Of a DNA stretch of 64,000 bases, positions 13,645 through 56,346 are shown piece by piece. The notes beneath the pieces are model-generated. The model was not told the DNA's origin and searched no databases. It saw only the letters and a list, made by a program, of their open reading frames with translations. Position 1 is the stretch's first letter; each line of letters begins with the position of its first letter. The position numbers were made by a program, and so were the translations under genes. Origin of the DNA: Lacipirellulaceae bacterium (GTDB lineage: Bacteria; Planctomycetota; Planctomycetia; Pirellulales; Lacipirellulaceae); the NCBI GenBank assembly GCA_040218535.1, contig JAVJRG010000005.1, forward strand, positions 1,550,001-1,614,000, written 5' to 3'.

Positions 13645-13683
13645 GTAAACCTAACTTATGGTCTCGACTGGACTTACAAAAAG

Positions 13684-13757
<74 letters not shown>

Positions 13758-15716: not shown

Positions 15717-16405
15717 GCCAAATAAAGACTGGGCCGACGAGCGGCTGGTGTTTTGCACGCTTTGACATTTGCACCAAAGTTGCATTTCGGCGTGCAAAAG
15801 TCCGAGGTGATTTTGCATTGCTGTGCTGCTTATCTCTATTGGCTCTAACGATTTAGGGCGTATCGGTGAAAACCGGGCTACCGACTTTTGCTTTGCGATC
15901 GTTAGCGTGCAGTGCAAAATTGCCGCATTGATCATGGCGGTCACTCTTTGAGCTCTTGAGGCGTTCATGCTCGCGAGAACTGTCATGGCTAACCCCGTAT
16001 TTTACCAGGTTGGGTGGCCAAAAGCGGGTGGGAAAACAAGGGGAGGTAGGCGTTGAGTCTCCTAAGAAGGGCGCTTGCAACGCACCACAATAGAGGCCGG
16101 CGGAGCGTTCCACACACCCTACTTACTTGACTTGCGGTCAGCGTCAGGCCGTGGGCTAGGAACTCTCCGGAAAACGATTCTTGGCGTTGCCATTATGCCA
16201 ATAATAGACGCTGACGTACCTAGCCCTCGGTGCGAGCAACTTTCCGAAATTGGGTCAGAAGCGGGAGAGTTTGAAGTTGCGGGAGGTGGCGTTCGAAACA
16301 CCCGCTCTCAGCGACTTGTCACCGCGGCGCATCGACAGCGGTTGGTCCAACTTCACTCGCGAAGACGGTCCGCGAATTGAAAGAGGTTGTCGTAACCTCT
16401 GCAGC
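15717..16405. other. intergenic region without a clear gene
   Basis: About 690 bp between convergent genes. The only marked structure is TTTTGCACGC (15751-15760) facing GCGTGCAAAA (15790-15799) across 29 bp, with two further TTGCA motifs nearby. This could act as a bidirectional terminator or a binding site; no T-run follows. Confidence 0.4.
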
Positions 16406-19400: not shown

Positions 19401-22400
19401 AGCCCCCCGGGGCCAGTGATGTTGCCTGAGGCGTCTAGTGTCGTGGTGTCATCGACATCGAATGTGCCGCCGCCAGCTTCAAGCTGAGTGCCGCGAATCA
19501 TGCCAAAGCTGGCGGTCGTATTCAAAGTGCCTCCGTCAAACGAAAGCAGTGTGCCAAGTGAACCAAGATTCTCGCTTTGGCTGACTTGCAACACGCCATC
19601 GTTGATGAAGGTGCCGCCCGTATAGGTGCTGACGCCAGTGAAGACCTGCGTGCCTGTGCCCTCTTTGATGATGGCACCACCCACGCCACTGATCACACCG
19701 CTATACGAACCACTGCCATCATCGGCACCAATCGTGAGTGTCCCCAGGCCAAGCAACACGTCGCCACCACCGAGTAGTCGGCCAATCGTGTCTGTAACAT
19801 CGGTCACGTCAAACGTCGCACCATTGAAGACATCAACACCACCATTGGCAAGCAGTCCTCCGCCTGTAAGACGAAGTGTTCCTTCGGTGATCTCGGTCAA
19901 TCCACCGAATGTGTTTGACTGGGTAAGCACGAGCGTTCCAGCACCAGATTTCACCAGATCGGCATTCGCCGCACCCGCGATGGGGCTGGCAAAGGTAAGC
20001 GTCGTGCCAGCGGCTGTTTCAAACTCACCGATGGAGTTAATCGTCGTTGTACGGCCGGTGGTGAATGTGGATGTCGTACGCAGCGTCCCTTGATTAAATT
20101 CGAGTGTAGACGACAAAGCACCTAAGCTACTGTTGTCCGTAATTTCTAAAGTACCTTGATCAATCAGCGTGGAAGCCGTGTAAGTATTCGCACCGCTGAG
20201 CACTTGAGTACCACTACCCGTTTTGACAAAAGCGCCGGTCTCTTGGATAGAACCACTAAAGTTACCGTCGCCATCAGCATCACCTACAGTCAGCGTGCCA
20301 CCTCCTAATAGCACCGTGCCATTGCCGAAGAGTCCGTCAATCGTGTCGCTCACGCCGTTCAAATCCCACACCCCGCCAGCAGTGACATCAAAAGCATCGG
20401 GCAATTCCCCGGAACCAAACTGCAAAGTTGCATTGCTAGAAATAAACGTATTACCCGCGTGGATTGCAGGCTCGGTGAGAATCATTGTGCCCGGTCCTTG
20501 GATAGAGAGATTCCCCGTGCCACTGATGCCGGCAGACTGTGTAAGCGTGCCACTATTCACAGAGATGGCACCGGAACCCGCGATCACAATCGGATGCAGA
20601 TTGGTAAAGCTCGCCGTGGTTTCTAAAATGCCACCATCGAGAGTGACTGCCCCACCATTGGCACCAAGATTTGCATTTTGACTCACACTTAGACTAGCGT
20701 CTTGAACTGTCGTGCCCCCTTGGTAGGTGTTTACGCCCGAGAGCGTGGCAAATTCTTCGTTGTCAGCAGCAATCGTCAAGCTTCCCACGCCACTGATGAT
20801 ACCCGGCACATTAGCCGCCACCCCACCTTCGTCACCGATGCGAATAATCCCTCCGCCGCTACCCAGCGTGATGTCTCGGCCAACGCCCAAATCAACTACG
20901 TTGTCGGTAATCTGTAACGTACCACTATCGATGCTAATGTCTCCCAACGAATCGCCTAAATTACTGTTGCCGCTAATGGAGAGAATGCCTTCGTTGATCG
21001 TGGTAGGCCCCGTGTAGGTGTTCGCTCCGGCAAGAATCAGCGTGTGCGTTCCATCTTTGATGAGTCCTCCCGTTTCAGAAATAATACCACTGAATATTGT
21101 AGCTCCGCCAACTTGATCGACAGTCAAGTCACCACCACCTAGCAGGATATTTCCGGCCCCTGAAATCGAGTCGACCGTATCGTGGTTGCCATTGAGATCC
21201 CAAGTCGCACCGCTGGCGATGCTGACATCGGTCGTATCGGGAAGCTGCCCGAAATTGATGAACTGCAATGTGCCGTCGTTGATGTTCGTAGGACCACCGT
21301 AGGAATTGGTACTCGCCGAAAGCTGCAACGTACCGTTGCCTGTTTTGGTAAGTGAGCCAATCCCCGTGATAGGAGTGCCGGCAAACATGGCAAAAGTTGT
21401 GCCGGTGTCGACATCAATCGTTCCGCCACCGGCGTTGAGCTGAATGCCCTTCAAGTTGTTCATTGTAGCAGCGGTTTCAAGGGTACCACCGTCGATCTGA
21501 ATCGTACCATTGCCTAAATTGCTCGACGTGCTGCCTGTGATGCGCAGCGTGCCGCCATTGATTTGCGTGCCACCATCCCAGGTGTTGCTTCCAGACAGCG
21601 TTTGCGTGCCAAGCCCGACCTTCACGAAAGCTCCAGACTCGGTAATGTTCCCAGTAAACGTACCACTGGCGTTGCCACCACCAACGGTGAGCGTACCGCC
21701 ACCCAGGGTGATTGAGCCGCTGCCAATAAGCGCGTCGACCGTATCGCTCACGCCGTTAAGATCAAATGTCGCCCCACTAGCTACGTCGATGTTGCTGGTG
21801 TCGTTGAGCCTACCTGCACCCGAGAGTCGAAGAATTCCAGCATCGATGTCGGTGGTTCCAGTGTTCGTATTGTTTCCGGTTAGAGTAAAAGTGCCCGAAC
21901 CAAGTTTGCCTAAAATCCCCGCACCGCTAATGACGCCCGAATAAGTTGTCGAAGTGCCATCTGAACCCACTCGCAGAGTCGTAAACAGTTCAGTCGATCC
22001 GGCACCTGCCAAGCTGCCGATATTTTCAGGATTAAAAACTTGGAAAGTCGCGCCCGAATTGACAGTCACCCGGGTTGAATCACCCAGTGCATCGCCAGCA
22101 CCCGACATTGCAAATGTTCCCTCATTGACAAAAATGTCGCCATCGAATGTCCCTGCATCAGCACTTGTTTTATTCCAGATACCATCGCCAATCTTATTGA
22201 TCGTAGTTGTGGAACTACCTGTGATGCCGCCCGATTGCACAAGCGTAGTACCACTGTTGACATCAAATGTCGCTGAGAGTCCTGGGTCGATCGTCACAGT
22301 GCGACTGTTGGTCAGCGTCCCGGTGGTGTTGAGCGTGCCGCCTCGAAAGATAATGCCGCCACTGCCTAAGTTACTACTGCTGCCAATGCGTAGCACACCC

Positions 22401-24481
22401 GCATCAATGGTCGTCGTGCCGGTATAAGTATTGTTGCCAGATAGCACCATTGTGTGCGTGCCTAGTTTACGGAAACTGCCTGCTTCGCTAATCACACCTG
22501 AGAAGGTTCGTGTGCCGCCATTTTCATCGACAAAGAGAGAAGCTCCGCCCAAAAGAATCGAGCCTGCTCCGCTAATCGAATCGACTTGATCGGTCAGCCC
22601 GTTCAAATCCCACGTCGCTCCCGAAGCAACAGAGACATCTGAAGACAAAGAGAAATCACCATTTCCTGAAAACTGCACGAGTCCATCATTGATAACCGTC
22701 GATCCCGTGTAGGTTTGTACGGAAGCAATGATCGCGGTATGATTGCCCGTCTTGGTAAAACCACCGCTTCCGCTGATGACGCCGCTCCAAGTAAACGTGC
22801 CGCTGGAAGCATCCACAGTAATTCTTCCACCGGTGCCTCCTGTATCAACACTCGAAAGCGAGCTATTACCAGACAAAGAATTGACGGTCTCGCTGCGATT
22901 GTTGAGGTCGAGCGTTGCGCCGGCTGAGATGTCGACATCCGAAGCATTGCTGATGGCATTGGTAGCGTTGATTCTTAGGATACCATCACTGACGTTGGTG
23001 TCCCCGGTGTACGTATTTGAAGCGTTCAAGACGAACGTACCATTACCCGATTTCGTGATCGCCCCGGTGCCCGAAATCGTAGCAGATTGTGTGAGCGTGG
23101 TACCGTTGTTGACTTCGATCGTGGCAGTCGTCGAATTCGTGGTAATGTTGCGTGAATTGGTAAAAGAAGACGTCGTGTTGAGCGTACCTGATCCAATTTC
23201 AACTGTGCCGCTGCCAAGATTCGCCTGACTACTGACGCGCAATTCGCCTTGGTTGATGTCGAGTATGGAAAAAGCGTTGTTGCCGGAAAGAATCAATGTT
23301 CCGGCACCGTTCTTTTGCATTTCACCCGTTTCAAGAATGTCGCCGCTAAAGGTGCGTGTGCCGGAGGTTTCATCGACCGTCAGGATACCTCCTCCCAGCC
23401 GAATCGTGCCCGCCCCGGCTATCGAGTCGACTGTATCGCTAACGCCATTGAGGTCAAACGTGCCGTTGGCTTCGACCAGTACGTCAGTCGAGTTGGAAAG
23501 CCTGCCGGATCCTTCTAGCCGCAGCGTGCCGTTGTTTACCGTGGTAGCACCCGTGTAGGTATTGCTGCCGGAGAAGACGGTTTCACCAGTTTGATTTTTG
23601 ACAATACCCCCCGTACCGCTAATCACTCCCGAGAAAGTAAATGAGGGATCTACCGCCGTGCTTTCACCGAGTGTTAACACGCCCGATCCTAAATCGACCG
23701 AGCCGCCACCAGTTAAAACATCAATATTTGTATCAAAGTTATTGAGATCGAAGGTGCCGTCGGAGAAGACGCCTAGATCAGCCCCGGCTGCTAAGTTGGA
23801 AGATGAATTTATCTGAAACGTGCCGTCAAAAATATCTATTTCACCTAGTGCAGTGCTTGATCCACTGATACGCACAAAAGAACCATTGTTAATCGAAAGT
23901 CTGCCATTGGTGACAAAACCAGAGCCTGTGATGCCACTATCAAAGAAAACATCGCCTCCGCCTGTCACAAAAATAGTGGAGCCACCCTGTTGAAAATTAA
24001 CATCCGAATCAAAGTCGATCGTGCCGTTGTTCGCGCGGATGCTCAGGGTTTGGTCTCCTAAGTTCACCACGGAATTGAATTCCAACTCTTGCGAGTCGTT
24101 ATTCACAATCTCCGTATCAACGGTCAGCGCTCCACCCGACAAAAACATCGCTCCGCCGCTAGAAACGTAAGAGGAAGACAAGGTGATTGAGTCGATATCG
24201 TAGTCGACATCGTTATTGAAAATGTCCTGAATATCTGGCGACGTGTCAGAGCCTTCTAAGATAATGTCAGTATTGATGCCGTTCGTGGGCGGAGCAGATA
24301 AACCACTCCACTGAGTAATATCTCCCCAGTTGCCGTTCGTTCCCGTGCCGGTCCAAGTAAAGGTGGCTGCCTGGGAGTAAACAATTAGCCCCATTAGTGA
24401 CAAGGCTAGTGACAGAATACCGACAGCTGGTACTTGATAGTTTCTTCGCGCGCGCAGACACAAATCATACGAGAACGTCAT
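16406..24481 (-). CDS. giant autotransporter-type beta-strand repeat protein with PEP-CTERM tail
   Basis: The 2691-residue start at 24481 (MTFSYDL) has AAGGTG about 4 bases upstream and leads directly into a signal peptide (VPAVGILSLALSLMGLIVYSQA). The body is more than twenty imperfect units of about 80-110 residues built on SGANTYTG-T-INxGTLR-SG, then GATFDLNGVSDTIDAL and GGGTLTVG, matching the autotransporter-associated beta strand repeat that folds as a beta-helix. No membrane beta-barrel follows. Instead the C-terminus has a dockerin-like segment (GDFDGNQRVDGFDFLAWQRDPS) and a PEP-CTERM signal: VPEPSS, a hydrophobic stretch and SRRRS. It should be exported and processed by an exosortase, giving a very long fibrous surface protein. 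Confidence 0.92.
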   Translation of the reverse strand: MTFSYDLCLRARRNYQVPAVGILSLALSLMGLIVYSQAATFTWTGTGTNGNWGDITQWSGLSAPPTNGINTDIILEGSDTSPDIQDIFNNDVDYDIDSITLSSSYVSSGGAMFLSGGALTVDTEIVNNDSQELEFNSVVNLGDQTLSIRANNGTIDFDSDVNFQQGGSTIFVTGGGDVFFDSGITGSGFVTNGRLSINNGSFVRISGSSTALGEIDIFDGTFQINSSSNLAAGADLGVFSDGTFDLNNFDTNIDVLTGGGSVDLGSGVLTLGESTAVDPSFTFSGVISGTGGIVKNQTGETVFSGSNTYTGATTVNNGTLRLEGSGRLSNSTDVLVEANGTFDLNGVSDTVDSIAGAGTIRLGGGILTVDETSGTRTFSGDILETGEMQKNGAGTLILSGNNAFSILDINQGELRVSSQANLGSGTVEIGSGTLNTTSSFTNSRNITTNSTTATIEVNNGTTLTQSATISGTGAITKSGNGTFVLNASNTYTGDTNVSDGILRINATNAISNASDVDISAGATLDLNNRSETVNSLSGNSSLSSVDTGGTGGRITVDASSGTFTWSGVISGSGGFTKTGNHTAIIASVQTYTGSTVINDGLVQFSGNGDFSLSSDVSVASGATWDLNGLTDQVDSISGAGSILLGGASLFVDENGGTRTFSGVISEAGSFRKLGTHTMVLSGNNTYTGTTTIDAGVLRIGSSSNLGSGGIIFRGGTLNTTGTLTNSRTVTIDPGLSATFDVNSGTTLVQSGGITGSSTTTINKIGDGIWNKTSADAGTFDGDIFVNEGTFAMSGAGDALGDSTRVTVNSGATFQVFNPENIGSLAGAGSTELFTTLRVGSDGTSTTYSGVISGAGILGKLGSGTFTLTGNNTNTGTTDIDAGILRLSGAGRLNDTSNIDVASGATFDLNGVSDTVDALIGSGSITLGGGTLTVGGGNASGTFTGNITESGAFVKVGLGTQTLSGSNTWDGGTQINGGTLRITGSTSSNLGNGTIQIDGGTLETAATMNNLKGIQLNAGGGTIDVDTGTTFAMFAGTPITGIGSLTKTGNGTLQLSASTNSYGGPTNINDGTLQFINFGQLPDTTDVSIASGATWDLNGNHDTVDSISGAGNILLGGGDLTVDQVGGATIFSGIISETGGLIKDGTHTLILAGANTYTGPTTINEGILSISGNSNLGDSLGDISIDSGTLQITDNVVDLGVGRDITLGSGGGIIRIGDEGGVAANVPGIISGVGSLTIAADNEEFATLSGVNTYQGGTTVQDASLSVSQNANLGANGGAVTLDGGILETTASFTNLHPIVIAGSGAISVNSGTLTQSAGISGTGNLSIQGPGTMILTEPAIHAGNTFISSNATLQFGSGELPDAFDVTAGGVWDLNGVSDTIDGLFGNGTVLLGGGTLTVGDADGDGNFSGSIQETGAFVKTGSGTQVLSGANTYTASTLIDQGTLEITDNSSLGALSSTLEFNQGTLRTTSTFTTGRTTTINSIGEFETAAGTTLTFASPIAGAANADLVKSGAGTLVLTQSNTFGGLTEITEGTLRLTGGGLLANGGVDVFNGATFDVTDVTDTIGRLLGGGDVLLGLGTLTIGADDGSGSYSGVISGVGGAIIKEGTGTQVFTGVSTYTGGTFINDGVLQVSQSENLGSLGTLLSFDGGTLNTTASFGMIRGTQLEAGGGTFDVDDTTTLDASGNITGPGGLTKIGDGTLVLSGFSTYLGGTNVNAGVVEISSAVNLGSTLGTLTLDGGTLRTTGNITTARPAVMGPGNGTFEVVAGTTLTRTGIVSGPGLLIKTGDGDLDLEAANTYLGNTVIGAGTLRVDASNQLGDAGNAVQLTDGTLNTTASFTNARSVLLSPGIGTFNVNTGTTLTQSGSLSNDIPILDGEFTKTGAGVLQLTAANTYTGSTTINAGTVRLSGAGQLPDVTDVSVANGATFDLNNVSDTIDALAGTGDVTLGSGTLTIGANDGGGTFTGVISGSGGLTKVGTGTQLIRTKSVGMDEFPHTYAGNTAINGGILDVEEDESLGDPAGSLSFDGGTLRVQGENSFNTTRVVTLNNGGGTLSTVGEDAAMDLGGVVSGTGSLTKTGIGRLTLSAANTYAGDTIITQGLVRLDGNGRLPDVSTVTVNAATAGLNAGGLDLNDIDDAIDGLNGTGDVVLGTGILTVGSADSGGNFSGTIEGTGGFVKTGAGAQVLSGANTYTGGTSFNGGTLEVNANNNLGAPLGALSFDGGTLIATNTFAMQRTTTLNSGGGTISVTGATTLTKSFPISGTGGLTKADTGTLILGGANSYTGPTNITGGMLRLGAIERLADVTDVTVSAGAIFDLDSNNESIDALSGAGSVQLGSAQLVVGLDNGSGTFGGVLSGTGDLLKEGIGTQTLTGANTYSGATFVDRGELILSGGGSINQTTLVTGFNIGSAGTTTVDGAATTWDLSGNLFVGFDGTGTMNINNGATVMVDGDVTVGGNGIAGVLSLDGGTLDNSAGTGVTVTTGALQGEGTVVGNVFNQDTVAPGNSAGILSLTGNYGQDVTGLLSFEIGGTDNSDPLNPDFDVFDISGTAGLAGELELALINGFTPAPSDMFTVLTSSALAGIFSNVADGARLNIYSGGTGSFQVDYTATSVVLSDFQGTGSSIPGDFDGNQRVDGFDFLAWQRDPSIGTLATWETNYGTTTIVNTAPVPEPSSLIVALTVFAIAASRRRS

Positions 24482-25109
24482 CTCACACCTTCCCAACCCG
24501 AGGCTGATAACTGATGACAAAAGACGAGAAATCTGCTCGACAAATCGCAGTGTTTGCAGAATGGACCACATTGCCGATCAGGCAGATCTCGCAGCAGGCG
24601 CGCCACATTCTATTCGCGTATGCAACATGTCGCAAGTAATTATCTTGTTTTGAATTAGATTTTCCTTGATCGGCCTAAATGCGCGTTCTTCAACGGACTC
24701 ATTGCTTAGGCCATATGCTCATGCACCACCATGCGTGCCAGCGTCTAGAAATCAGTTTGGACGAATGAATTCGCTGCCCCTCCGTTCTTGTGTTGGGGGG
24801 AAACGAGTCACCCAACAGCTCACTCTCGGCACTGAATCGCCTGATTGTCGAGCGGCTGCAAGCAAAGCTACTTGATTTCAACCTGAATCCAAGTCGGCCG
24901 ACAATCGTACGCTGATTTCTCTGGATGAGTTTTCTGACTTTTGACATCTTGAAGCTGCACACCGACTGATGCGAAAAGGACGTGACTTTGGGGTCAGCGC
25001 CGTACTGGCTTTCCAAAGCATTTCCGACTTGCATCATGCCTACTCCAAAGACGACCAGTGAAAGGCGTTACTGTGACAGGTTGGTAACCCCACAGAGGAG
25101 GTCTGAGAG
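24482..25109. other. intergenic region upstream of the giant gene
   Basis: The promoter of the giant gene must lie here on the minus strand. No complete gene is convincing; short open frames on both strands are Ser/Arg-rich and look like degraded sequence. A GGAGG site near the right end belongs to the truncated lipoprotein that follows. Confidence 0.45.
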
Positions 25110-25331
25110 ATGAAACGCTTCCAGTTTGGAGCACTCGTCGCGCTCAGTAGTTTGCCACTGTTCGCACTCGGCTGCGGTTCTTCCAACCCAACTACCACCC
25201 GCCTGATGCCAAGTCTCGCGGAACTCGTCCTCGGGGTTGCTCTGGTAGGTAATGCTGCCGCCCACGGGGAGTTGCCACCAGCCCCCGGTTGCGGTGACGG
25301 TGCGGATGAGGATGTTGGAGTCGAAGCCTAG
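25110..25331 (+). pseudogene. truncated lipoprotein start running into a pabB remnant
   Basis: A strong GGAGG lies about 8 bases before the ATG at 25110. The first 30 residues form a lipoprotein-like signal (MKRFQFGALVALSSLPLFAL then GCGSSNPTTT). From about 25198 the DNA is the antisense of a pabB 3' end, so the remaining 43 residues are read on the wrong strand of another gene. The most economical reading is a lipoprotein gene whose 3' part was lost when the pabB-bearing segment joined. Whether the short chimera is made is unknown. Confidence 0.5.
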
Positions 25332-25480
25332 TTAGAAGGTGGAGCTGCAGTAGGCACCGCGGGCGTGAGGGTTCGAGTTCGGCGATGATTTCCATTGCGC
25401 ACCTTGGGTGCACCGGTGATGGAGCCGCCGGGGAAGCTGGTGCGGAGGAGATCGACGATCCTCATATTCTGGGCATCTTC
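25198..25480 (-). pseudogene. pabB 3' fragment A, internally deleted and frameshifted
   Basis: On the minus strand, pieces of the PabB C-terminus can be read in several frames: NMRIVDLLRTSFPGGSITGAPKV, then AMEIIAELEP, then GGSITYQSNPEDEFRETWH. They align with residues near the end of the intact PabB at 34596-36014. In the intact protein the segment NVMIVDLLR and the later DLLRASFPGG are about 75 residues apart; here they are fused at DLLR, so the part between has been deleted. Several frameshifts make the fragment non-functional. Confidence 0.85.
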
Positions 25481-25597
25481 TTCAATGTCGCCCGAAGAAT
25501 CTAATTGCAGAATTCGATGCGGCTGGCAATTCCTGATATAGTAAGCCTTCATCGCTTCCGCGAACTCCTCCTCTAATTCTACAGTGGGTCAGATCGA

Positions 25598-27871
25598 ATG
25601 AAAAAAATGGCCATCTTTGTCGCGATGTTGGACATTAGCCTGTCAATCTCCTCTGGCTACGCACAATCCGGCTTCCTCCTCGAACCGACCCACGCCCTCA
25701 CCGCCTCGGCGGACTTCGACACCCAGTTCACGACCGGCGCGTGGACGCCCTCCGCGCCCACCGTGGGCGGCCCGGGTACGGTGCTCCGCTTGGACATCGA
25801 CGCCTACACCGGCGGCGGCTCCTCAGACGCTGACATCGAGAACGATTTCGCGCCGACGGTCTACGACCTCTCCGGGCTTGTGCTCAATTACAACGATAGT
25901 TTTTCTGGCGCCCGTACATCATCGCTCTTACGCCCGGCGGGCTCCTCCTGGCGGTTCGTTTCCAGCGGAGGGATCGATCCGCGCATCGAGCGGACTAACT
26001 CAGGCCGATGGGAATTCGAAGCCCCGATGGAGTTTGCCAACGACGTCACCTATTTCTCGTCGTTCCGGCCGGCCGCACTTTTTCTAGAAGGGGCGATCAC
26101 CGGAACCGGCGGCTTGATTGTCGACGGCGTCCTGCAAGATTACAGGGTCGGTAATGTCGGCAGCACGCTGAAGCTCAACGCACATGCCTCTTATACGGGA
26201 CCGACCATCATTCGGGCCAGAGGGCTGGATATCGAAGACGCTGGCAGCTTGAGCGCGACCAGTTCCATCACGATCGAACCAGCAGGCCGCCTCACATTTC
26301 TTGTGGGTTCAAACTTGTCGGGCAATCGGATCGGCGATACGATCCCGGTGACGCTTGCCGGCGGTGCCCTTACCGGCAATGGTATTTCTGCCACTTCGTA
26401 CACCGAAACCATCGGCGACGTCACCCTGGCACGGGCCACCTCGAGTCAAATCGGCATACGTCCCTATCGGGGCGACCTCGCCTTGAGCAGCCTCACTCGG
26501 CAGCGGCACGCGACGCTATCGGTATATGGCGAAAGCCTGATCCGCGGCGTCGGCGGCGTAGTGACCGAAGGCGGGATCAATCCCGGTAACGCCCTGCCGC
26601 TCGTTGGTGGAGCGGGCGTCGCAGGCACGACTGGCATCAGCATCGTCCCCTACATGGCTGGGCATTCGAATCAGGATGCCAACCCCATCTTCGCGGAACC
26701 CAACAGCCTGGTCACGCTCGATCCCAGCAACAACTTCCGTGTGCTCGACCGAAGCACCGAGTTACAAGCCAATTTGACGCCCGATACGCTCACCAACGCC
26801 AACGTGCTGCAGTCTAGTGACTCGGTGCTCACCGCCCCCACCTCCGTAAACGCGTTGGTGTTTCGTTTTAGTGCTGAAATCGGGGGCCCAGGGTCGCTCA
26901 GCATCACCAGCGGAGCCCTTGTGTCATCCGACGTTGCTAGTGTTATCGCTTCGATTGGCGTCAATGACCTACTGTTTCCCAACGACGCGTACGTGTGGGC
27001 TTCCGAGCGGGTCGAGATATTCTCCGATGTCACCGTCACTGGCGACTTCAACAAGAGCGGTCTCGGACTGCTCGAGCTTTTCGGCCCCACGACGGCCAGC
27101 GGCGGAGCGGCCTTCACCCAAGGCAAGACGGACCTCTACGGCTCGCTCGACGCGACTGACCATGTGATCGTGGGAGGAGACGGTGAGCTGGAGATGCTCG
27201 CCGGAGCGTCCCTCACTACGCCTCTGCTGGAGATCGCGGGCGAAGAAGCCCGCTTCACGATGAGCGGCGGCGACCTCCAGGCCGGCGCTGTGATCGGCAA
27301 TCTGTTCCTCGAAGGCGGCGCGTTCTCCCCCGCGTCCGCGCTCGAGACCAGCATCGACGGCAACCTCACCCTGTTCAGCGGCAGCGAATTGGCCATCGAT
27401 ATCGAAGGCACGGGCGCCGGCCAGTTCGATCAGATCGACGTCTCCGGCGACCTGCTGATTACCGGCGGACTCGACCTTGCGATCGGAGCCTACACCCCAA
27501 TGCCCGGCGACGTGATCCCCATCGGCCTGATCGACGGCACGCTGGCGGGCCAGTTTACCGGGCTGGGTGAGGACGACGTTGTGGCCACGGCAGGCAACGT
27601 CGACCTCCGCATCAGCTACACCGCCGGCGACGGCAACGACATCGCCCTGCTAGCCGTCTTGCAAGGTGATTTCGATCGTGATAACGATGTCGACGGGATC
27701 GATTTTTTACTCTGGCAGCGTGACCCAAGCGTCGGGCTACTCTCCGATTGGGAATCTAACTACGGTATCCCAGCGAATGTGGCTGCCGCAGCAGTTGCCC
27801 CCGAACCGTCCTCGATGCTGTTGGCAGCTAGTATAAGTCTGCTTTTCTATTCCCGAGAAAGACGGAGTTAA
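25598..27871 (+). CDS. PEP-CTERM surface protein with beta-helix repeats
   Basis: A 757-residue secreted protein: signal peptide (IFVAMLDISLSISSGYAQS), autotransporter-like beta-strand units (ALFLEGAITGTGGLIVDG, SYTGPTIIRARGLDIEDAG, GGAFSPASALETSIDGNLTLF), a dockerin-like segment (GDFDRDNDVDGIDFLLWQRDPS), and a PEP-CTERM tail (APEPSSMLLAASISLLFYSRERRS is the region; Pro-Glu-Pro then hydrophobic then basic). The GC content by eye is higher than in the giant gene next door, which hints at separate ancestry. It lies between pabB remnants A and B. The Shine-Dalgarno before ATG 25598 is weak. Confidence 0.85.
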   Translation: MKKMAIFVAMLDISLSISSGYAQSGFLLEPTHALTASADFDTQFTTGAWTPSAPTVGGPGTVLRLDIDAYTGGGSSDADIENDFAPTVYDLSGLVLNYNDSFSGARTSSLLRPAGSSWRFVSSGGIDPRIERTNSGRWEFEAPMEFANDVTYFSSFRPAALFLEGAITGTGGLIVDGVLQDYRVGNVGSTLKLNAHASYTGPTIIRARGLDIEDAGSLSATSSITIEPAGRLTFLVGSNLSGNRIGDTIPVTLAGGALTGNGISATSYTETIGDVTLARATSSQIGIRPYRGDLALSSLTRQRHATLSVYGESLIRGVGGVVTEGGINPGNALPLVGGAGVAGTTGISIVPYMAGHSNQDANPIFAEPNSLVTLDPSNNFRVLDRSTELQANLTPDTLTNANVLQSSDSVLTAPTSVNALVFRFSAEIGGPGSLSITSGALVSSDVASVIASIGVNDLLFPNDAYVWASERVEIFSDVTVTGDFNKSGLGLLELFGPTTASGGAAFTQGKTDLYGSLDATDHVIVGGDGELEMLAGASLTTPLLEIAGEEARFTMSGGDLQAGAVIGNLFLEGGAFSPASALETSIDGNLTLFSGSELAIDIEGTGAGQFDQIDVSGDLLITGGLDLAIGAYTPMPGDVIPIGLIDGTLAGQFTGLGEDDVVATAGNVDLRISYTAGDGNDIALLAVLQGDFDRDNDVDGIDFLLWQRDPSVGLLSDWESNYGIPANVAAAAVAPEPSSMLLAASISLLFYSRERRS

Positions 27872-28379
27872 ATGCCGCCGTCTGTACGTCACCGCAATCA
27901 GTCGCGCGCATGCTAAAGTCTCTCGAAGTTGGACAAACCGAACTCACAACCGCAATTTGCAGAATTGCACAGTCGTAACAGACCGATGCTGTTTCGGCGA
28001 ATTCCAACATTACCTCAGCTGCATCGACTGAGACGCATTTCTGCGCGGTCGCTACGGAATCGCTTCGCTATAAGAGTGGGAGTGCGTCGTCAATCGGTTT
28101 GGGCCGGGTTCAGCTTCCATTCTAGTACAGCTTATTCGTCCTGTGGCTTCAGAGAATGCCGTCGTGCAATCAAGCCAATGCCTTCAACAACCCGCGCGCA
28201 TAGTGCCACGTCTCGCGATACTCGACCTCGGGGTCGCTCTGGGAGGTGATGCCGTCGTCCTTGGACTGCTTTTTCGCCGGATTTATCCGATAAAATCTCG
28301 AAGCCTTGCAATGGGCCGCTCAGGTGGCGACATATGCAGGTGTCGTTATCAAAAAACACTCTGGAATAGGGATGGAGCT
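27872..28379. other. intergenic region with pabB remnant B
   Basis: No intact gene is seen. Apart from the pabB fragment at 28173-28258 the stretch has no recognisable coding content. An open frame of the following gene extends upstream to 28143 but crosses the remnant on the opposite strand, so that extension is rejected. Confidence 0.5.
28173..28258 (-). pseudogene. pabB 3' fragment B
   Basis: The minus strand reads D-G-I-T-S-Q-S-D-P-E-V-E-Y-R-E-T-W-H-Y-A then RGLLKAL, matching the last residues of intact PabB (GGGITAQSDPEDEYRETWHK, ARGLLEALS). It is in frame over its whole length but lacks everything upstream. Confidence 0.85.
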
Positions 28380-30878
28380 ATGCGATTTTTTTCGAAGAAG
28401 GCCGTTGGTCTCACAGCAAGAAAGTTCCGCGCCGAGCGGCTCGAGGATCGGCTGCTGATGTCGGTGAACGAAGGAAGCTTCGCGCCGGGGGGCGATTTCG
28501 ACGGCAACCAGCTTGTTGATGGCAATGATTTGGCCGTATGGACAGCCGACTACGGCTCGACCGACGATCTGGCCGCGGATGCCGACTGCAATGGTCTGAT
28601 CGAAGGTCAGGACTTTTTGGCATGGCAACGAAACTTCGGACGCGAACTCAACACGGACTTCGACTTCGGCGACGCTCCGGCATCGTATGGCACGACCCTG
28701 GCCGACGATGGTGCACGGCATCTCGCCACGGGTCCGACACTCGGAGCCACTCGCGATGGGGACTTCGACGGGGTGCCCTCCGGCCAGGCCGACGCGGACG
28801 GCGCCGACGAAGACGGCATCATTTTCACTGACCCGATTCAAGTCGGCGCCCTCGGCGTGAGTGCGTTCGTCGATGTGTTCGGGGCAGAGGGGCAGGCGAC
28901 TAAGCTCGACGCGTGGATCGACTTCAACGGCGACGGATCGTTCGGCGGCTTCGGCGAACAGATTTTTGCGTCGCTCGAGTTGGCGGGGGGGCCAGATGGC
29001 AGGCGGTTGCTTCGGTTCGATGTGCCGAGCTTCGCCGTCGCCGGTGAGCAGATCGCGCGGTTCCGCTTGAGCACCGAGGGCGACCTGGGGCCGACGGGCG
29101 CTGCCGCTGACGGAGAGGTGGAGGACTACGTCGTGACGATTCTCGGGCCAACCGCATCGACCGGCCTCTTCCAAGATCAGCCAGCGATCTCCGATTCGGA
29201 AACGGGCGCAAGCAGCGTGTCGGCGGCCGACATCGATGGTGATCGCGATATTGATGTCGTGTCTTCGCGCGGCAACACCTTGGTCTGGCACCAAAACTTG
29301 GGCTCCGGCATCGCCTTCACCGAACACATCATTGACGACACCTTTGACGCCAACGTGTCGGCGTCGATCGCCGCCGACCTCGATGGCGATGGCGATATCG
29401 ACGTCATCTCGGCGACCAACTTTCAAAACGGCGTAACCAATCGTGGTGTCTTCTGGCACGAGAACGATGGCAGCGATAACTTCACGCGTCGCGGAGTCTC
29501 TAACGCCGGCGTCGTCAATCGGGTAGAGAGCCTGTTTGTCTCCGACGTCGACGGCGACGGTGACCAAGACATCCTCGCGATCACCAATTCCACGAACGGC
29601 AACAACATTTCCGTGCTGGTGAACGACGGCTCGCAGAGCTTCTCCGTTCAGGCTGTTGGCGCGGCGAGCTTCGGCCGAAGCGTTTTCGCGGCGGACGTGG
29701 ATTCCGATGGCGACATCGACGTTCTCTCTGCTTCGCGAAACGACGACAAGGTCGCGTGGTTCGAGAATCAGGGAGGACTCAGCTTCCAAGAGCACGTGCT
29801 CACGACGAGCGCCAACGGCGCCGCAAGCGTATTTGCCGTGGACCTCGACGGCGACGGCGACACCGACGTGATCAGCGCGTCGAACCAAGACAGCACGGTC
29901 GCCTGGTTCGAGAACGACGGTGAGCAGAACTTCACCGAGCGGGAGATTTCGACGAACGACCGCGGGACGTTCGCCGTGTTCGCCGCCGACTTTGATGGCG
30001 ACGGGGACATCGACGTACTCAGCAGTGCGACGGCCAACGGGGAGCTTGCCTTGCACGTGAATGACGGCAACGAGAACTTCGCGAAGCGCAGTTTTGGCTC
30101 AGGCCTTGCCAATGCCCGCCGGATCTTCGCCGCCGATATTGATGGCGATGGCGATCTCGACGCCCTGGCCGCATCGGCGACGCCGGGCAGCACCGTGTCG
30201 TGGTTTGAGAACCAAGTACTCGAGGGCCAGCCCGAAGTCGTCTTCGATAACGGCGCGGGCGGCGTCAACACTCCCGGCCAAGTCTTCGCCGATTCGCCGG
30301 GGGACCGGCTGAACGCCGACGACGTGACGCTCGCGGAAACGACGCTGGTGACCTCGATCGCTTGGAACGGTCGCTACGCGAACTTCCTGGAAGACAATGC
30401 CCCCTCTGAGCTAGACGACTTCACCATTGCGATCTACGCCGACGCCGACGGCAGCCCGGCGAGTGGCCAGCCGCTTGCGGAGTTCAACGTCGGCAACGCT
30501 GTGGGCCGCACGCCCACCGACCGCAACTTTGTCTTTTCCTACGAAGCCGACATCAACTTCCTTATGGAGGCCGGCGTCCGCTACTGGGTCTCGCTGCGAA
30601 ACAACACCCCCGACGACCCGGCCAGCTTTCAATGGTTGGTTGATCCCGACCTCACGAATAACGTCCATTTCTCTAGCGACGGCGGCGCCACGTGGCTGTT
30701 TCAGGGCCAGCAGGCCGACTTCCGGCTGTCTGGGGTGACGCTGAATCAGCAGGCGGCATCTCTATCGTCTCAAACAGCGATTGAGTCTGATTTGACAGAG
30801 CGGGAATCCGACACGCAAGACGAGGCGCTGCTGCTCTACCTGGAAGAGGCGGATGCCGTTGAGGCCTTCGGGATATAA
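28380..30878 (+). CDS. LEPR-XLL / dockerin / GEVED / FG-GAP surface protein
   Basis: From the ATG at 28380 (GGAG just before it) the protein has 832 residues. Order of parts: LEPR-XLL-type N-terminus (AERLEDRLLMS, about residues 17-27), dockerin-like pair (GGDFDGNQLVDGNDLAVW and ADCNGLIEGQDFLAWQRNFG), GEVED domain (DFGDAPASYGT to ADGEVEDYVVTI), at least seven FG-GAP/VCBS repeats with the calcium-type DxDGDGDxDxLxA motif and W-x-ENxG, then a beta domain near the C-terminus. The LEPR-XLL leader and repeats point to export and an adhesive or matrix role. The gene lies between pabB remnants B and C. No PEP-CTERM tail is present. Confidence 0.88.
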   Translation: MRFFSKKAVGLTARKFRAERLEDRLLMSVNEGSFAPGGDFDGNQLVDGNDLAVWTADYGSTDDLAADADCNGLIEGQDFLAWQRNFGRELNTDFDFGDAPASYGTTLADDGARHLATGPTLGATRDGDFDGVPSGQADADGADEDGIIFTDPIQVGALGVSAFVDVFGAEGQATKLDAWIDFNGDGSFGGFGEQIFASLELAGGPDGRRLLRFDVPSFAVAGEQIARFRLSTEGDLGPTGAAADGEVEDYVVTILGPTASTGLFQDQPAISDSETGASSVSAADIDGDRDIDVVSSRGNTLVWHQNLGSGIAFTEHIIDDTFDANVSASIAADLDGDGDIDVISATNFQNGVTNRGVFWHENDGSDNFTRRGVSNAGVVNRVESLFVSDVDGDGDQDILAITNSTNGNNISVLVNDGSQSFSVQAVGAASFGRSVFAADVDSDGDIDVLSASRNDDKVAWFENQGGLSFQEHVLTTSANGAASVFAVDLDGDGDTDVISASNQDSTVAWFENDGEQNFTEREISTNDRGTFAVFAADFDGDGDIDVLSSATANGELALHVNDGNENFAKRSFGSGLANARRIFAADIDGDGDLDALAASATPGSTVSWFENQVLEGQPEVVFDNGAGGVNTPGQVFADSPGDRLNADDVTLAETTLVTSIAWNGRYANFLEDNAPSELDDFTIAIYADADGSPASGQPLAEFNVGNAVGRTPTDRNFVFSYEADINFLMEAGVRYWVSLRNNTPDDPASFQWLVDPDLTNNVHFSSDGGATWLFQGQQADFRLSGVTLNQQAASLSSQTAIESDLTERESDTQDEALLLYLEEADAVEAFGI

Positions 30879-30916
30879 GTGGCACCTAGGCTGAGGCACC
30901 CTACGGTTACAGATTT

Positions 30917-30988
30917 CAGCTAAGTGCTTCTGGGATTCCACGCGCCTTGTGCCCCGTCTCGCGGTACTCGTCCTGCGGGCAACTCCGG
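30917..30988 (-). pseudogene. pabB 3' fragment C
   Basis: The minus strand reads DEYRETGHKARGIPEAL, matching the C-terminal DEYRETWHKARGLLEALS of intact PabB; the plus-strand DNA matches 34597-34665 with a few changes. It ends at the neighbouring FG-GAP gene's 3' end. Confidence 0.85.
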
Positions 30989-30992
30989 TCGC

Positions 30993-33900
30993 CTATTTCT
31001 CTGCGAACACGGATTCCAGCAATTCCTCAGAGAGCCACTCCTGCGGCCCTTCGGGTGATCGGTCGTCAGCTTGCTGAGAAAGGGTCTCTACGGGAGTGTC
31101 ATCTGAAAAGGACACGAAGTGACGGACAGCTGATTCCAATTGTCTCACTTCTGTGAGTATAGGAGGGACTTGCCTTGGAACGATTGCTTCGACGCGATTG
31201 TCAATGTCATGCAGTGCCATTTCTAAGGCAGCATCGATTAGCTCCGAGCGATCCGCAATTGGTTCTTCTGTTGAAGGACTGCTCGCTGCCGCGACGATCG
31301 ATTGCGTCTGTCCGTAATTGGTCTTCCATAACGCAAGATCAAAGCCGTTGACGGCCCCATCGTTGTTGGCATCGCCGTCGGCTACGGTGGCACCGCTGGT
31401 GACGCCGAAGCCGCGTTGCCAGGTGAGGAAGTCGAAGCCATCTACGTCATCGTCAGTGTCGAAGTCGCCCGCCGGCAACGTGAAGACTTGGCCGGTCGCA
31501 TCGCCATTGCCTGTGCCGACTCCGCCGAGCGGCAACGGTGTGGGATCGACCGTGTCGAAGATCGAATCGTCGTCGATCAGATTCAGACCAAGGGTTCCAG
31601 CGCCGGCAATGTTCTCGATATCGACCAGGTAGGAAAAGGGCTGCTGTTCATCAACGCGGAGAATCGTTCCGGTGGCGGTTCCAGTCGTCGCAATCTGGAA
31701 ATCAGTGACATCGACGCCCGTAACCGATTTGTTGAAGGTTACCCAGAAGGTCAGAAAAAACGGTGGGAATGATATCTCATCAAGGCGAACGATGCTCAGC
31801 ACTTGCGGCAGCATGTTATCGATCATGTAGACTTCGCCCTCGAAGTCTCCGTTGCCAACGCCAAAGTTACCGAGCGGGTTACCATTAGGATCGACAATTG
31901 TATCATCGTCTTCTAGGTCGAGGCGCAGGGTTCCAGTGCCGGTGATGTTATCGACTGTCACGGTATAGGAGGAAGGTGTCCCTTGCACAACTTGCGAAAC
32001 ATTTCCTGCTACATCGCCCGTGGTTGTCAACGAAAAATCGTCCACGCTTACGCCTATCGCATCGCGGTCAAAGACGACTGAATAGGATACGCTCCCTGCA
32101 TTGGTTGGAGTGGGATCTAACCGTGTGATCGAAGTCGCCAATAGCGGCGCCACAGTGACCGTCGACGAGGTTACGTTTGCCTGAGGAAGAGACAATAACG
32201 GATCGGTTTGGTCGAAATACGTTGCCGAAGTTGTTGTTGCTCCTGTTGTTTGATGAACCAGGCGAAAACTCGTTTCTGGAGCAGCCCCCGCATTGGTGGG
32301 AAACTCGGCGACAACGAGATAAGAACGAGTAGTAGCTGCGAGCACAGCAACGGTGCCAACGCCCGAGGGAAGTGAAAGTGAGAGCAACCCATTGGTCAGC
32401 GTCAAGTTGTCAACAGAGCTAATAGCGGTGTCAATTGGGGCGTTAAAGACACCATTATCATCGTCGTCTCGATAGAGAACCAGTCGGTCAATCACCGCAT
32501 TGGCCTCAGCGGTTGTCAAAGCCGTACCACTGCTTGTCTCGATGCGGAGCTGCACTGATTCCAACTGCGCAGCGGCATCGCCGCTCCGTCCCAAATGGGT
32601 AAAGTCAATCTTCAACAGCTCGCTCTCATCACCGGGTAAAATCTGCGCTGGTGCAGTATCGGAAGTATTCAAACTGAACTGCGCACGGCGGTTCTCCCAC
32701 CAGGTGATGTCATTAGCACGAACTGCGGCTCCGAGGACATCGAGATCACCGTCCCCGTCCACGTCCGCCGTGGTTACGGAAGTAGAACCATCAAAACTGC
32801 CGTCGATGGTATGCTCGGTCCAGGCCGAGCCATCGCTGGCGGTGTTCTCCCACCAAGTGATGTCATCGGCAGCAAATGCCGCTCCGAGGACATCGAGATC
32901 GCCGTCCCCGTCCACATCCGCCGTCCTGACGGAAGCAGCACCGTTGAAACTGCCGTCAATGGTATGCTCGGCCCAGGCCGAGCCATCGCCGACGGTGTTC
33001 TCCCACCAAGTGATGTCATCGGCCCGCTGTGCAGCTCCGAGGACATCGAGATCGCCGTCCCCGTCCACGTCCGCCGTGGTTACAGATCTAGCGCGATCAT
33101 AGCTGCTGTCGATAGTATGTTCGGTCCAAGCCGAGCCATTGCCGGCGGTGTTTTCCCACCAAGTGATGTCACCAGCATTATCTGCAGCTCCGAGGACATC
33201 GAGATCGCCGTCCCCGTCGATGTCTGCTGTTGTTACGGATACTGCACCAAAAAAAATGCCGTCAATGGTTACTTCTGCTTGCGAATTGATCGTGATCCCC
33301 GAGTGAATCGCCAGATTCGCTCGCCAGACGCGGCGGTTGTTATTGGAGGAGACATAGCTGACGTCCAAATCACCATCGTTATCGATGTCGCCTATTGCGA
33401 CATCCTCGGCAGTTGGCGGCATTTCCAGGACGTGGCGAGTGAACGTGGGATCGCTCTCGCCGCCGTTCTCATACCAGGCAATCGTCCCCGAACCGCTGCG
33501 CCCGCTGGCCAGCAGGTCGAGATCGCCATCTGCGTCCAAATCGCCCACGGTCACGTCATAGGCACCGGTGAGTCCGCTATCGATAGTCTTTTTGAAAGGA
33601 TTTCCTTGAAAGAAATTTCCTGTAGTGCCATGGTTGTTGTACCAGACTAAATCGCCATCGGTACCGGAAGTGGCGATGACGTCTGTGAAACCATCACCGT
33701 CAAGGTCCGCGGCAGTTAGGTTGCGTGGGGCATTCAGAGGAACGCTCGCCGTTGTTCCCCCAGCATCGAGAGTAATGGTGTTTGCGCTCAAGTCGGCAGT
33801 AATGATATACAGTTGCCCACCCTGATTAGAATCGGTCGTCGTAATATAGTCGGCACTCAAGCCAGACCCTGACGGTGTGAAGCCGCCCGAGCCGTTGTTT

Positions 33901-34415
33901 TCATACCTGCCCACATTGCCGTCGAACAGGACGTCCAGATCGCCATCGCCGTCATCGTCGACCAACTTGACAGACGCGCCAACGCTGCTGTGCGAAAAAA
34001 TGAGTTTAGGAGAACTAAAAAAGTTGGGACCAAAATTTTCAAACCACTGCACCTTATCGTCCGAGACAGACGAGGCGAACACATCGAGATCGCCATCGCG
34101 ATCGACGTCTCCCACGTCGAGTCCGCGGACGTTGTTGGCTTGTGCAGCCGTGGCAATCGTTTGTGCCGAGCCAAACGTGCCCGCCCCGTCGGTGTTCTCG
34201 TACCAGAACACGCCGTCGTCGGCCGCCAACTGGTCGAGGTCCCCATCGCCGTCGAGATCGGCCATAATGATGAGGGTGTCGGTGGCCTCGTTGGTATCAA
34301 TCAATTGCTCCGGGCCAAATGGCACAGCCGTGAGCATGTGACGCGATTCGAGCTGTTCGAGACTGAGGCGACGTCGATGGGCAGGCGCAGAGTGTGATCG
34401 CGGCTTATGAGTCAT
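30993..34415 (-). CDS. LEPR-XLL FG-GAP repeat protein with dockerin-like segment
   Basis: An 1140-residue surface protein. The N-terminus has the LEPR-XLL-type motif (RRRLSLEQLESRHMLTAVP, about residues 14-32). Residues about 35-590 are FG-GAP/VCBS blades with DxDGDGDLD calcium loops; they include four nearly identical 51-residue units. Two Calx-beta/Big-like domains follow (SITRLDPTPTNAGSVSYSVVF and SIVRLDEISFPPFFLTFWVTF), then a dockerin-like segment (GDFDTDDDVDGFDFLTWQRGFG and GDANNDGAVNGFDLALWKTNYG), and a helical C-terminal tail. It is convergent with the 28380 gene and lies between pabB remnant C and intact pabB. Confidence 0.88.
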   Translation of the reverse strand: MTHKPRSHSAPAHRRRLSLEQLESRHMLTAVPFGPEQLIDTNEATDTLIIMADLDGDGDLDQLAADDGVFWYENTDGAGTFGSAQTIATAAQANNVRGLDVGDVDRDGDLDVFASSVSDDKVQWFENFGPNFFSSPKLIFSHSSVGASVKLVDDDGDGDLDVLFDGNVGRYENNGSGGFTPSGSGLSADYITTTDSNQGGQLYIITADLSANTITLDAGGTTASVPLNAPRNLTAADLDGDGFTDVIATSGTDGDLVWYNNHGTTGNFFQGNPFKKTIDSGLTGAYDVTVGDLDADGDLDLLASGRSGSGTIAWYENGGESDPTFTRHVLEMPPTAEDVAIGDIDNDGDLDVSYVSSNNNRRVWRANLAIHSGITINSQAEVTIDGIFFGAVSVTTADIDGDGDLDVLGAADNAGDITWWENTAGNGSAWTEHTIDSSYDRARSVTTADVDGDGDLDVLGAAQRADDITWWENTVGDGSAWAEHTIDGSFNGAASVRTADVDGDGDLDVLGAAFAADDITWWENTASDGSAWTEHTIDGSFDGSTSVTTADVDGDGDLDVLGAAVRANDITWWENRRAQFSLNTSDTAPAQILPGDESELLKIDFTHLGRSGDAAAQLESVQLRIETSSGTALTTAEANAVIDRLVLYRDDDDNGVFNAPIDTAISSVDNLTLTNGLLSLSLPSGVGTVAVLAATTRSYLVVAEFPTNAGAAPETSFRLVHQTTGATTTSATYFDQTDPLLSLPQANVTSSTVTVAPLLATSITRLDPTPTNAGSVSYSVVFDRDAIGVSVDDFSLTTTGDVAGNVSQVVQGTPSSYTVTVDNITGTGTLRLDLEDDDTIVDPNGNPLGNFGVGNGDFEGEVYMIDNMLPQVLSIVRLDEISFPPFFLTFWVTFNKSVTGVDVTDFQIATTGTATGTILRVDEQQPFSYLVDIENIAGAGTLGLNLIDDDSIFDTVDPTPLPLGGVGTGNGDATGQVFTLPAGDFDTDDDVDGFDFLTWQRGFGVTSGATVADGDANNDGAVNGFDLALWKTNYGQTQSIVAAASSPSTEEPIADRSELIDAALEMALHDIDNRVEAIVPRQVPPILTEVRQLESAVRHFVSFSDDTPVETLSQQADDRSPEGPQEWLSEELLESVFAEK
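32690..33260 (-). repeat. four 153-bp tandem repeats in the FG-GAP gene
   Basis: The segment CCGAGGACATCGAGATC recurs at 32731, 32884, 33037 and 33190, exactly 153 bp apart (51 codons). Each unit encodes ADDITWWENT, SAWTEHTIDGS and SVTTADVDGDGDLDVLGAA with few changes, indicating recent amplification. Confidence 0.85.
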
Positions 34416-34595
34416 AGTGTTGGTTTCAGAGTACCAAGATGAGAGTCGTGTCCGGGTAAGGTCGAATCACCACCATCGCTGTCGATTCGACCTAACCAGC
34501 TATTATGCTCAAAACGCGACTAATTGCGAGGAGAATGCTGCAGATTGGATTATCTGCGTGAGACCTCGAGGTGTTTCATGATAACTGGAATGGGG

Positions 34596-36014
34596 TCAGC
34601 TTAGCGCTTCCAGCAATCCCCGCGCCTTGTGCCACGTTTCACGGTACTCGTCCTCGGGGTCGCTTTGCGCCGTAATACCGCCACCGACGGGGAGTTGCCA
34701 CCAACCTTGGCTTGCCGTGACGGTGCGGATAAGGATATTCGAGTCGAACGTGCCGTCGAAGCCTTGGTAGAAGAGCGAGCCGCAGTAGGCGCCGCGGGCG
34801 GTCGGTTCGAGCTCGGCGATGATTTCCATCGCGCGGACTTTGGGGGCGCCGGTTATCGAGCCTCCTGGGAAGCTGGCGCGGAGGAGGTCGAGGGGCGTGA
34901 TGCCTTCCTGCAGTTCGCCGCGGACGACCGAAGTGAGGTGTTTGACAAAGGCGTAAGTTTCTAACTCAAAGAGCTTCGCGACGTGGACGCTTTCAGGTTT
35001 GCAGACGCGTGAGAGATCGTTACGCAGGAGATCGACGATCATCACGTTCTCAGCTCGATCTTTCTCACTGGCAAGTAAGTCGTCGCCGGTGAACAGATCG
35101 GCCACGGCATTTGGCGAACGCCCACGGGTGCCCTTGATGGGGCGCGTTTCGACCTGCCGCTGTCCTTCCGTTCCTGTACGGACGGTGAGAAAGCACTCGG
35201 GCGAAGCGCTGCAGATTTGTGAGTCGCCCAGATCGAGGTAACAGGCATAAGGAGCGGCGTTTCGCGTTCTTAATCGCTGATAAAGTTCAACTGAAGAACT
35301 GGTTGCTGGGGCGAGCAAACGCTGGGCGAGATTCACTTGGAAGCAATCGCCGGCGTAGATGTAGTCGATGCCGTGCTGGATACACGCGCAGAATTGGTCT
35401 TTGGTAAAGTTGCTGGTGACGGTTTCGCCCTGGATGGAGTGTTGGGGTGCGAGCTGCGAGTTGGGAGTTTGTGTTGGAGAACTTACCGAATGAGGTCGTG
35501 GATCACGAAGCCACTGCTTCGCTTCGGCCAGACGAGCTTCAGCTCGTTGGTGCCTATCAGCAAAGTCGGTCTCGGGGAAACCCTGCGAGATGATCCAACT
35601 CTGGCCGGTGTCGTGATCGAACGCGAACACTAAATCGTAGAGCCCAACAGCCAGGGCAGGCACCGGCAAATCGTCGTACGTGGGCGGGGCGATTCTTTCG
35701 AGGCTACGGGAGAGATCGTAACTCGCTAGACCTGCGATGCCGCCTTGAAAGGGTGGTAAGTCGTCGCGATTCTTCGCTTCGAATGGCTGCGCGACCCGAG
35801 CCAGTTCGCTGAGTGCATCCGAACCGTTGGCGGGGATCGTAAACCAGTGAAAGGGATCAACCGCCAGAAAAGAATAACGCCCCGTCTTTTCGCCTTGCAG
35901 CGCGCTATCGAAGAAAACAAGATGCTCAAGACCGGCAAGCCGTACGAAGACCTGCTCCGCGGTGAGCTTTGCGGGGAGGGGTTCAGCTAGTGGGAGTTGG
36001 AAGGTCTCTAGCAT
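34596..36014 (-). CDS. pabB: aminodeoxychorismate synthase component I
   Basis: The 472-residue protein is a full-length chorismate-binding enzyme: N-terminal part (LEHLVFFDSALQGEKTGRYSF), then IQHGIDYIYAGDCFQVNLAQRL, CSASPECFLTVR, RPIKGTRGRSP, ENVMIVDLLRNDLSRVC, LRASFPGGSITGAPKVRAMEII and YCGSLFY. The PIKGT Lys marks the PabB-type mechanism. It converts chorismate to 4-amino-4-deoxychorismate with a glutaminase partner, toward p-aminobenzoate. It is 12 bp downstream of the pterin-binding DHPS-like gene and clearly co-transcribed. Three truncated copies of its 3' end lie beyond it at 25-31 kb. Confidence 0.92.
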   Translation of the reverse strand: MLETFQLPLAEPLPAKLTAEQVFVRLAGLEHLVFFDSALQGEKTGRYSFLAVDPFHWFTIPANGSDALSELARVAQPFEAKNRDDLPPFQGGIAGLASYDLSRSLERIAPPTYDDLPVPALAVGLYDLVFAFDHDTGQSWIISQGFPETDFADRHQRAEARLAEAKQWLRDPRPHSVSSPTQTPNSQLAPQHSIQGETVTSNFTKDQFCACIQHGIDYIYAGDCFQVNLAQRLLAPATSSSVELYQRLRTRNAAPYACYLDLGDSQICSASPECFLTVRTGTEGQRQVETRPIKGTRGRSPNAVADLFTGDDLLASEKDRAENVMIVDLLRNDLSRVCKPESVHVAKLFELETYAFVKHLTSVVRGELQEGITPLDLLRASFPGGSITGAPKVRAMEIIAELEPTARGAYCGSLFYQGFDGTFDSNILIRTVTASQGWWQLPVGGGITAQSDPEDEYRETWHKARGLLEALS

Positions 36015-56141: not shown

Positions 56142-56346
56142 CCGTGTCTACAAAAGACAAGTCACGAGGATTATGACGCTTGTAAGTCCAATTCACGCTA
56201 ACGAACAGGCAAACTAAGCGGAAAACATCAGCCTGTTGCAAAAAGTAATCTACGTTTAAGTAAACCGATAAGGCAAACATTGCCACAGATGGGTCAGCAA
56301 ACCGGCCCCCTCGATATTTCGACCCTGCCACAAGGAGTTCCCTAAG

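Follow-up and report, generated by a model that had tools for sequence, protein, structure and literature searches.

The 18.9 kb of DNA that lies downstream of pabB in this Lacipirellulaceae genome is probably a displacement array, in which foreign blocks carrying single surface-protein genes would have been inserted serially at the 3' end of pabB, anchored on pabB homology. The probability of this reading is roughly 60%, and the repeated capture of genes at this place is well supported. The reading rests on the confinement of all extra pabB pieces to this locus, on the gene-like divergence of these pieces, on two foreign cargo genes, on block borders that coincide with the pieces, on the empty site in Adhaeretor, and on two parallels in other genomes. 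The window, to which all coordinates refer unless noted, is the complete stretch of 64,000 nucleotides that was analyzed.

Architecture of the pabB locus

A search of the whole genome with the pabB 3' end revealed three extra pieces, referred to as tails A, B, and C. All are located at this locus, and all other matches have E-values above 0.09. The features of the locus are as follows.

14133..15716, plus strand: convergent squalene-cyclase-like gene at the far edge of the presumed expansion (ortholog in Adhaeretor, L018, with 77% amino acid identity)
16406..24571, minus strand: cargo 4, on the far side of tail A, a 2721-residue PEP-CTERM protein that has autotransporter-type repeats (TIGR02601, PF12951)
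25111..25198, plus strand: lipoprotein-like gene, 5' end only (MKRFQFGALVALSSLPLFALGCGSSNPTTT), cut where tail A begins (GAGGAGG before the ATG; assigned from its sequence)
25195..25488, minus strand: tail A, the 3' third of a pabB, with an internal deletion, frameshifts, and a TAA, and with its terminus lost (E 1.2e-56)
25598..27871, plus strand: cargo 3, a 757-residue PEP-CTERM protein (82.9% DNA identity to an Adhaeretor locus)
28173..28258, minus strand: tail B, the last ~86 bp of a pabB, frame and stop retained (79% identity, E 2.3e-9)
28380..30878, plus strand: cargo 2, a surface protein with an LEPR-like N-terminus, FG-GAP, and GEVED (PF13517, PF20009)
30917..30980, minus strand: tail C, the last ~64 bp of a pabB, frame and stop codon present (83% identity, E 1.9e-10)
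30993..34415, minus strand: cargo 1, a 1140-residue surface protein with an LEPR-XLL-like N-terminus and FG-GAP repeats, dockerin-like (PF13517, PF07595 below cut-off, PF00404)
34596..36014, minus strand: intact pabB, encoding aminodeoxychorismate synthase component I, 472 residues (PF00425 at 1e-83, PF04715; 75% amino acid identity to Adhaeretor)

As can be seen, the three tails share the minus orientation of the intact gene and alternate with surface-protein genes, just as an earlier note on this DNA had described. Its positions for the tails hold, with adjusted ends: tail A extends from 25195 to 25488, and support for tail C ends at 30980 rather than at 30988. Tail A is bigger than it first appears, spanning approximately codons 330 to 466 of the 472-codon gene, and its internal deletion of ~130 bp is sited between two similar short motifs. 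Only 3' ends are present among the extra copies, with no 5' or middle pieces of pabB. That each gap between pabB pieces holds one large PEP-CTERM or LEPR-XLL gene, likewise described earlier, is correct, for the open reading frames of 757, 911 (LEPR-like), and 1140 residues are intact; a fourth, of 2721 residues, lies beyond tail A. The listed 911-residue frame begins at GTG 28143, and cargo 2 as defined here comprises 832 residues from ATG 28380. The cargo orientation is mixed. A Pfam search with the lipoprotein-like 5' end at 25111-25198 gave no match. The 5.36-Mb genome contains at least 147 PEP-CTERM signals.

A complete gene, beyond which 5'-truncated versions of its 3' end follow in one shared orientation, is the anatomy of a displacement array. 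The tails are 71-83% identical, and their longest shared runs are 12-15 nt; thus identical core repeats bounding an element are not present. An assembly artefact or a chimeric contig is a highly improbable source of this anatomy. Apart from the division of the assembly into 13 contigs, nothing was found to support it, whereas the locus sits inside a 2.15-Mb contig, the tails differ both mutually and from the resident gene, and independent genomes show the same form.

In Adhaeretor mobilis, the only congener compared, pabB and the convergent squalene-cyclase-like gene are 10 bp apart, stop to stop. In the window they are separated by 18.9 kb (15717-34595), and this stretch is absent from Adhaeretor mobilis. 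The 10-bp gap, together with the ortholog at 14133-15716, suggests that the stretch is either an expansion in this genome or a loss in Adhaeretor. The gene for pabA follows pabB directly in 76 of 95 genomes of the order. Here, the two genes are on opposite strands and ~105 kb apart (pabA at G000:C5:1479309-1479878), and in Adhaeretor the distance is 226 kb, again with pabA on the other strand. This distant, opposite-strand placement points to an ancient inversion, one breakpoint of which would have fallen at the pabB 3' end. Given that pabA is separated from pabB in this genus, the pabB 3' end may already have been a site of rearrangement, and no operon partner needed protection there.

Two further observations concern the remainder of the window. 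A tyrosine integrase gene (12382-13578) adjoins a tRNA-Met gene (13683-13757), ~20 kb from the pabB array, and in Adhaeretor a 45% identical integrase occupies the same tRNA-Met place and is followed by different cargo. This place is a second, tRNA-linked insertion site. Additionally, three related stretches at 51782-52099, 55815-56111, and 56314-56646, one of them inverted, match one short Bythopirellula open reading frame.

Divergence of the tails and origin of the cargo

Differences from the resident pabB at the first, second, and third codon positions number 10/6/31 for tail A, 6/2/15 for tail B, and 2/1/7 for tail C; in tail B, 12 codons differ only synonymously and 5 non-synonymously. 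When a tree was fitted by codon position, the branch belonging to tail A alone amounted to 0.16/0.06/2.0 changes per site, with 5-95% ranges of 0.38-5.5 at third positions and 0.02-0.14 at second positions. That this branch is long at third positions alone indicates that tail A evolved under coding constraint, within a working gene, after leaving the resident lineage, and not as a neutral copy. Third positions are also in excess among the differences of tails B and C from the resident, which is suggestive of once-working alleles. Changes specific to the fragments, when pooled, fall at third positions in 25 of 42 cases (p = 4e-4), although polarization is imperfect at near-saturated sites. The earlier note had quoted bases shared by the fragments and absent from the resident gene. 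These bases are correct, and there are nine columns in which all fragments present have such a base, eight of them at third codon positions; several of the nine, however, also occur in other species. A mosaic origin of the resident pabB end was rejected, for third positions diverge from Adhaeretor to a similar degree throughout the gene.

The earlier expectation that the remnants would group with pabB of other species found no support in the genomes compared. Tail A lies inside the clade formed by the resident gene and Adhaeretor (support 99/91), and within that clade it may be the sister of the resident, which is its best placement (82/27; AU p-values of 0.37 and 0.47). In a tree built on a short alignment tail A pairs with tail B (98/86), and the short length of tails B and C precludes their placement. 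A sister position to the resident is what would result if pabB, or only its end, had been duplicated in tandem in this genome and the copy had then decayed, with surface-protein genes inserted by unrelated events. Such an origin is nonetheless improbable in light of the presence of 3' ends only, the constraint on tail A, and cargo blocks that border exactly on the tails. The earlier argument against simple duplication is thus sustained by the constraint on tail A, by the third-position differences, and by the two foreign cargo genes bordering tails that are described next.

Adhaeretor carries a homologue that matches cargo 3 along its full length, but at another locus, away from pabB. The block from 25487 to 27936, which encompasses cargo 3, is 82.9% identical in DNA sequence to that locus and starts where tail A breaks off. 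Where the two copies of cargo 3 encode the same residue, 21% of the codons differ, versus 53-61% in seven genes of shared context. This disparity indicates that cargo 3 moved between the two lineages after their split or that a common source supplied both. Likewise, residues 1-624 of the 911-residue frame that includes cargo 2 are 80% identical to the product of a gene from another genus (G018), with 37-39% of synonymous codons changed as compared to 59% for pabB. The homologous block starts at ~28268, where tail B breaks off. Both blocks, then, begin within ~15 bp of a tail's broken end; in the case of tail C, ~13 bp separate its broken end from the stop codon of cargo 1. In neither G018 nor Adhaeretor does pabB, or a piece of it, adjoin the cargo homologue. 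On the basis of these sequence comparisons, at least two of the cargo genes, 2 and 3, were horizontally acquired.

The earlier proposal of repeated capture from related donors accordingly stands with respect to capture, as witnessed by the foreign cargo 2 and 3 and the empty site in Adhaeretor, but not with respect to the identity of the donors, for the tails do not group with the pabB of named other species. A separate donor for each tail, delivering it along with the adjoining surface gene, is plausible; alternatively, a tail may be the former resident end that the incoming surface gene displaced. The tails themselves are without function, and the surface genes are probably expressed and kept.

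Parallels in other genomes and the placement of the breaks

The survey of relatives covered 806 kb downstream of pabB in 95 other genomes of the order. Two of these, G028 and G064, which represent two other genera, display independently the arrangement of pabB, a small gene, and a pabB tail. In G028 (L145 420-1210), an AbiEii-like nucleotidyltransferase gene separates pabB from an 83-bp pabB tail that lies downstream and is 91.6% identical. In G064 (L275, reverse strand, 450-1650), the intact pabB carries ~45 bp of a decayed pabA start, followed by ~0.9 kb containing an HEPN-like gene. Beyond this insert, a 58-bp pabB tail is joined to the intact pabA, and this tail marks the original pabB-pabA junction. 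The insert duplicates ~105 bp across that junction; one copy has a decayed pabA part, and the other a decayed pabB part. The tails of both genomes are closest to their own resident pabB, and each may have arisen by local duplication. With regard to cargo, the earlier note had anticipated that neighbors would carry other surface genes at this spot. None of the surveyed relatives combines a surface-protein gene and a pabB tail at this place, the two genomes in question carrying nucleotidyltransferase- and HEPN-type genes instead. The pabB loci of 80 GTDB contigs contained no convincing tail.

The G064 duplication bears on the possibility of insertion in situ, whereby a staggered break near the end of pabB captures foreign DNA, fill-in duplicates 60-110 bp, and the copies diverge later. 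The reciprocal decay across the pabB-pabA junction in G064 fits such a course, as does the fact that the copies within G028 and those within G064 are closest to each other. A copy decaying from birth would not, however, show the coding constraint observed for tail A after it left the resident lineage, and the pooled fragment-specific changes favor third positions. For the window, this course of events is thus doubtful.

Tails are commoner at pabB than elsewhere. A scan of ~2,650 other open reading frames under the same rule yielded 0-1 comparable tail, the one kept being a PEP-CTERM gene of this genome, as compared to 2 of 95 pabB loci with the window excluded (Fisher p 0.001-0.003). These values derive from one bacterial group sampled in depth, the other frames lie mostly near pabB or PEP-CTERM genes, and repetitive or paralogous matches were set aside by eye. 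Within this genome, 60 stretches of 20 kb each (1.2 Mb, 869 open reading frames, most of them selected for nearby PEP-CTERM genes) contained no tail of any other housekeeping gene, which speaks against a general process beside surface genes; two matches in these stretches involve PEP-CTERM tails. At L210 5964-6834 (G000:C12), a PEP-CTERM gene is immediately preceded by a 92-bp repeat of its 3' end and downstream flank, possibly the same kind of event at a surface gene.

The tails are also alike in length. Four of the five measure 58, 64, 83, and 86 nt, the exception being the long tail A; four tails below 90 nt would have a probability of 8e-5 if the breaks were uniform over the gene. Tail B (start 28258) and the G028 tail (L145 ~1123) share their starting point, the GGCAT codons located ~85 nt from the stop of pabB, and the G064 tail may have the same start if small deletions are allowed. 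These lengths, the common GGCAT start, and the excess of tails at pabB are what would be expected if a recombinase acting in trans recognized a site ~60-90 nt before the pabB stop and if small, non-autonomous cassettes carried a replacement pabB end. Other observations make such a site-directed process unlikely. There is no integrase or transposase gene in the array (15717-34595) or in the G028 and G064 inserts, and the sole integrase nearby is that at the tRNA-Met gene, 20 kb off, as in Adhaeretor. Tail A is far longer than the others, an attC-like fold is absent, and the cargo orientation is mixed. The broader proposal that the pabB 3' end serves throughout this order as a recurrent landing place for integrase-less, single-gene cassettes, cut ~60-90 nt before the stop by an enzyme supplied in trans, is rather unlikely as well.

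Several candidate elements were considered and rejected. No fold in the tails was better than those of shuffled sequences, which eliminates an attC-like or hairpin site. An integron is contradicted by the mixed orientation, the lack of an unusual fold, and the lack of an integrase within the array, and an island driven by its own integrase by the lack of an integrase gene between 15717 and 34595.

Proposed events and known systems

In the proposed serial, homology-anchored insertion, each block would bring one surface-protein gene with its promoter to the pabB 3' end. The incoming DNA would most likely pair with the resident pabB, which serves as the anchor, and supply a complete new 3' end, while an illegitimate recombination event within the old end of pabB would join its other side. 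The product would be a 5'-truncated old tail, with its stop and the flank downstream of it, beyond the new gene, with pabB remaining whole; repeats of this step predict the anatomy observed. A circular molecule entering by a single crossover in pabB would yield the same product. Tail C would then be the youngest scar and tail A the oldest. We infer the order of events, the anchor mechanism, and the arrival or displacement of tail and cargo in the same event. Two findings weigh against parts of this scheme. No donor with pabB beside a surface gene is known, the homologues in Adhaeretor and G018 being located elsewhere (although these need not be donors), and the short, similar tail lengths argue against random illegitimate joints. 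Together they leave room for a site-directed process.

If the array is read in this manner, the tails of a housekeeping gene form a record of repeated gene gain that reveals the order, the relative ages, and the borders of the events even when few strains are available. It would also represent a route by which planctomycetes rich in PEP-CTERM and LEPR-XLL proteins gather single surface genes across species and genera with no visible mobile elements. The pattern of gene, foreign block, and gene tail is a testable marker of capture for other genomes, and it led to the two additional pabB cases. A search of the literature found no report of pabB as an insertion site.

Islands placed by recombinases at the 3' ends of genes provide one comparison. 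SCC integrates at the 3' end of rlmH. In tyrosine-recombinase islands at gene 3' ends, such as GInts at ssb (PMC5385486), the gene likewise stays functional, and tandem accretion with repeated gene ends is possible. Unlike GInts and SCC islands, the array and its parallels are without an integrase, the inserts are single-gene, and the tails are diverged and unequal in length. Hotspots of gene turnover without mobile elements, for which recombination at flanking core genes has been proposed (PMC5635113), also position accessory genes beside a core gene. They are defined by comparison of many strains and by double crossover, whereas here truncated copies of the core gene record the events.

The earlier note knew of no described system of this kind; displacement arrays at Rhs and type VI secretion (T6SS) loci are, in fact, related. 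For the T6SS effector-immunity modules of Vibrio cholerae, sequential displacement by homology-anchored insertion has been proposed (PMC5361080), and the outcome is alike: an intact gene with a new end, followed by older 3' pieces and genes. The anchor in that system is a toxin gene selected for variety, whereas here it is a conserved folate gene combined with unrelated surface proteins. The same insertion scheme has been proposed for Rhs tips (PMC2935791), where truncated, partly decayed core fragments with variable lengths and neighbors lie downstream in the same orientation. Rhs tips belong to the same protein, however, and their core pieces are reported to be identical within a locus, whereas the pabB tails are diverged and non-coding. 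Kin arrays are thus already known, and what would be new here is the displacement-array form at the housekeeping gene pabB with unrelated surface genes.
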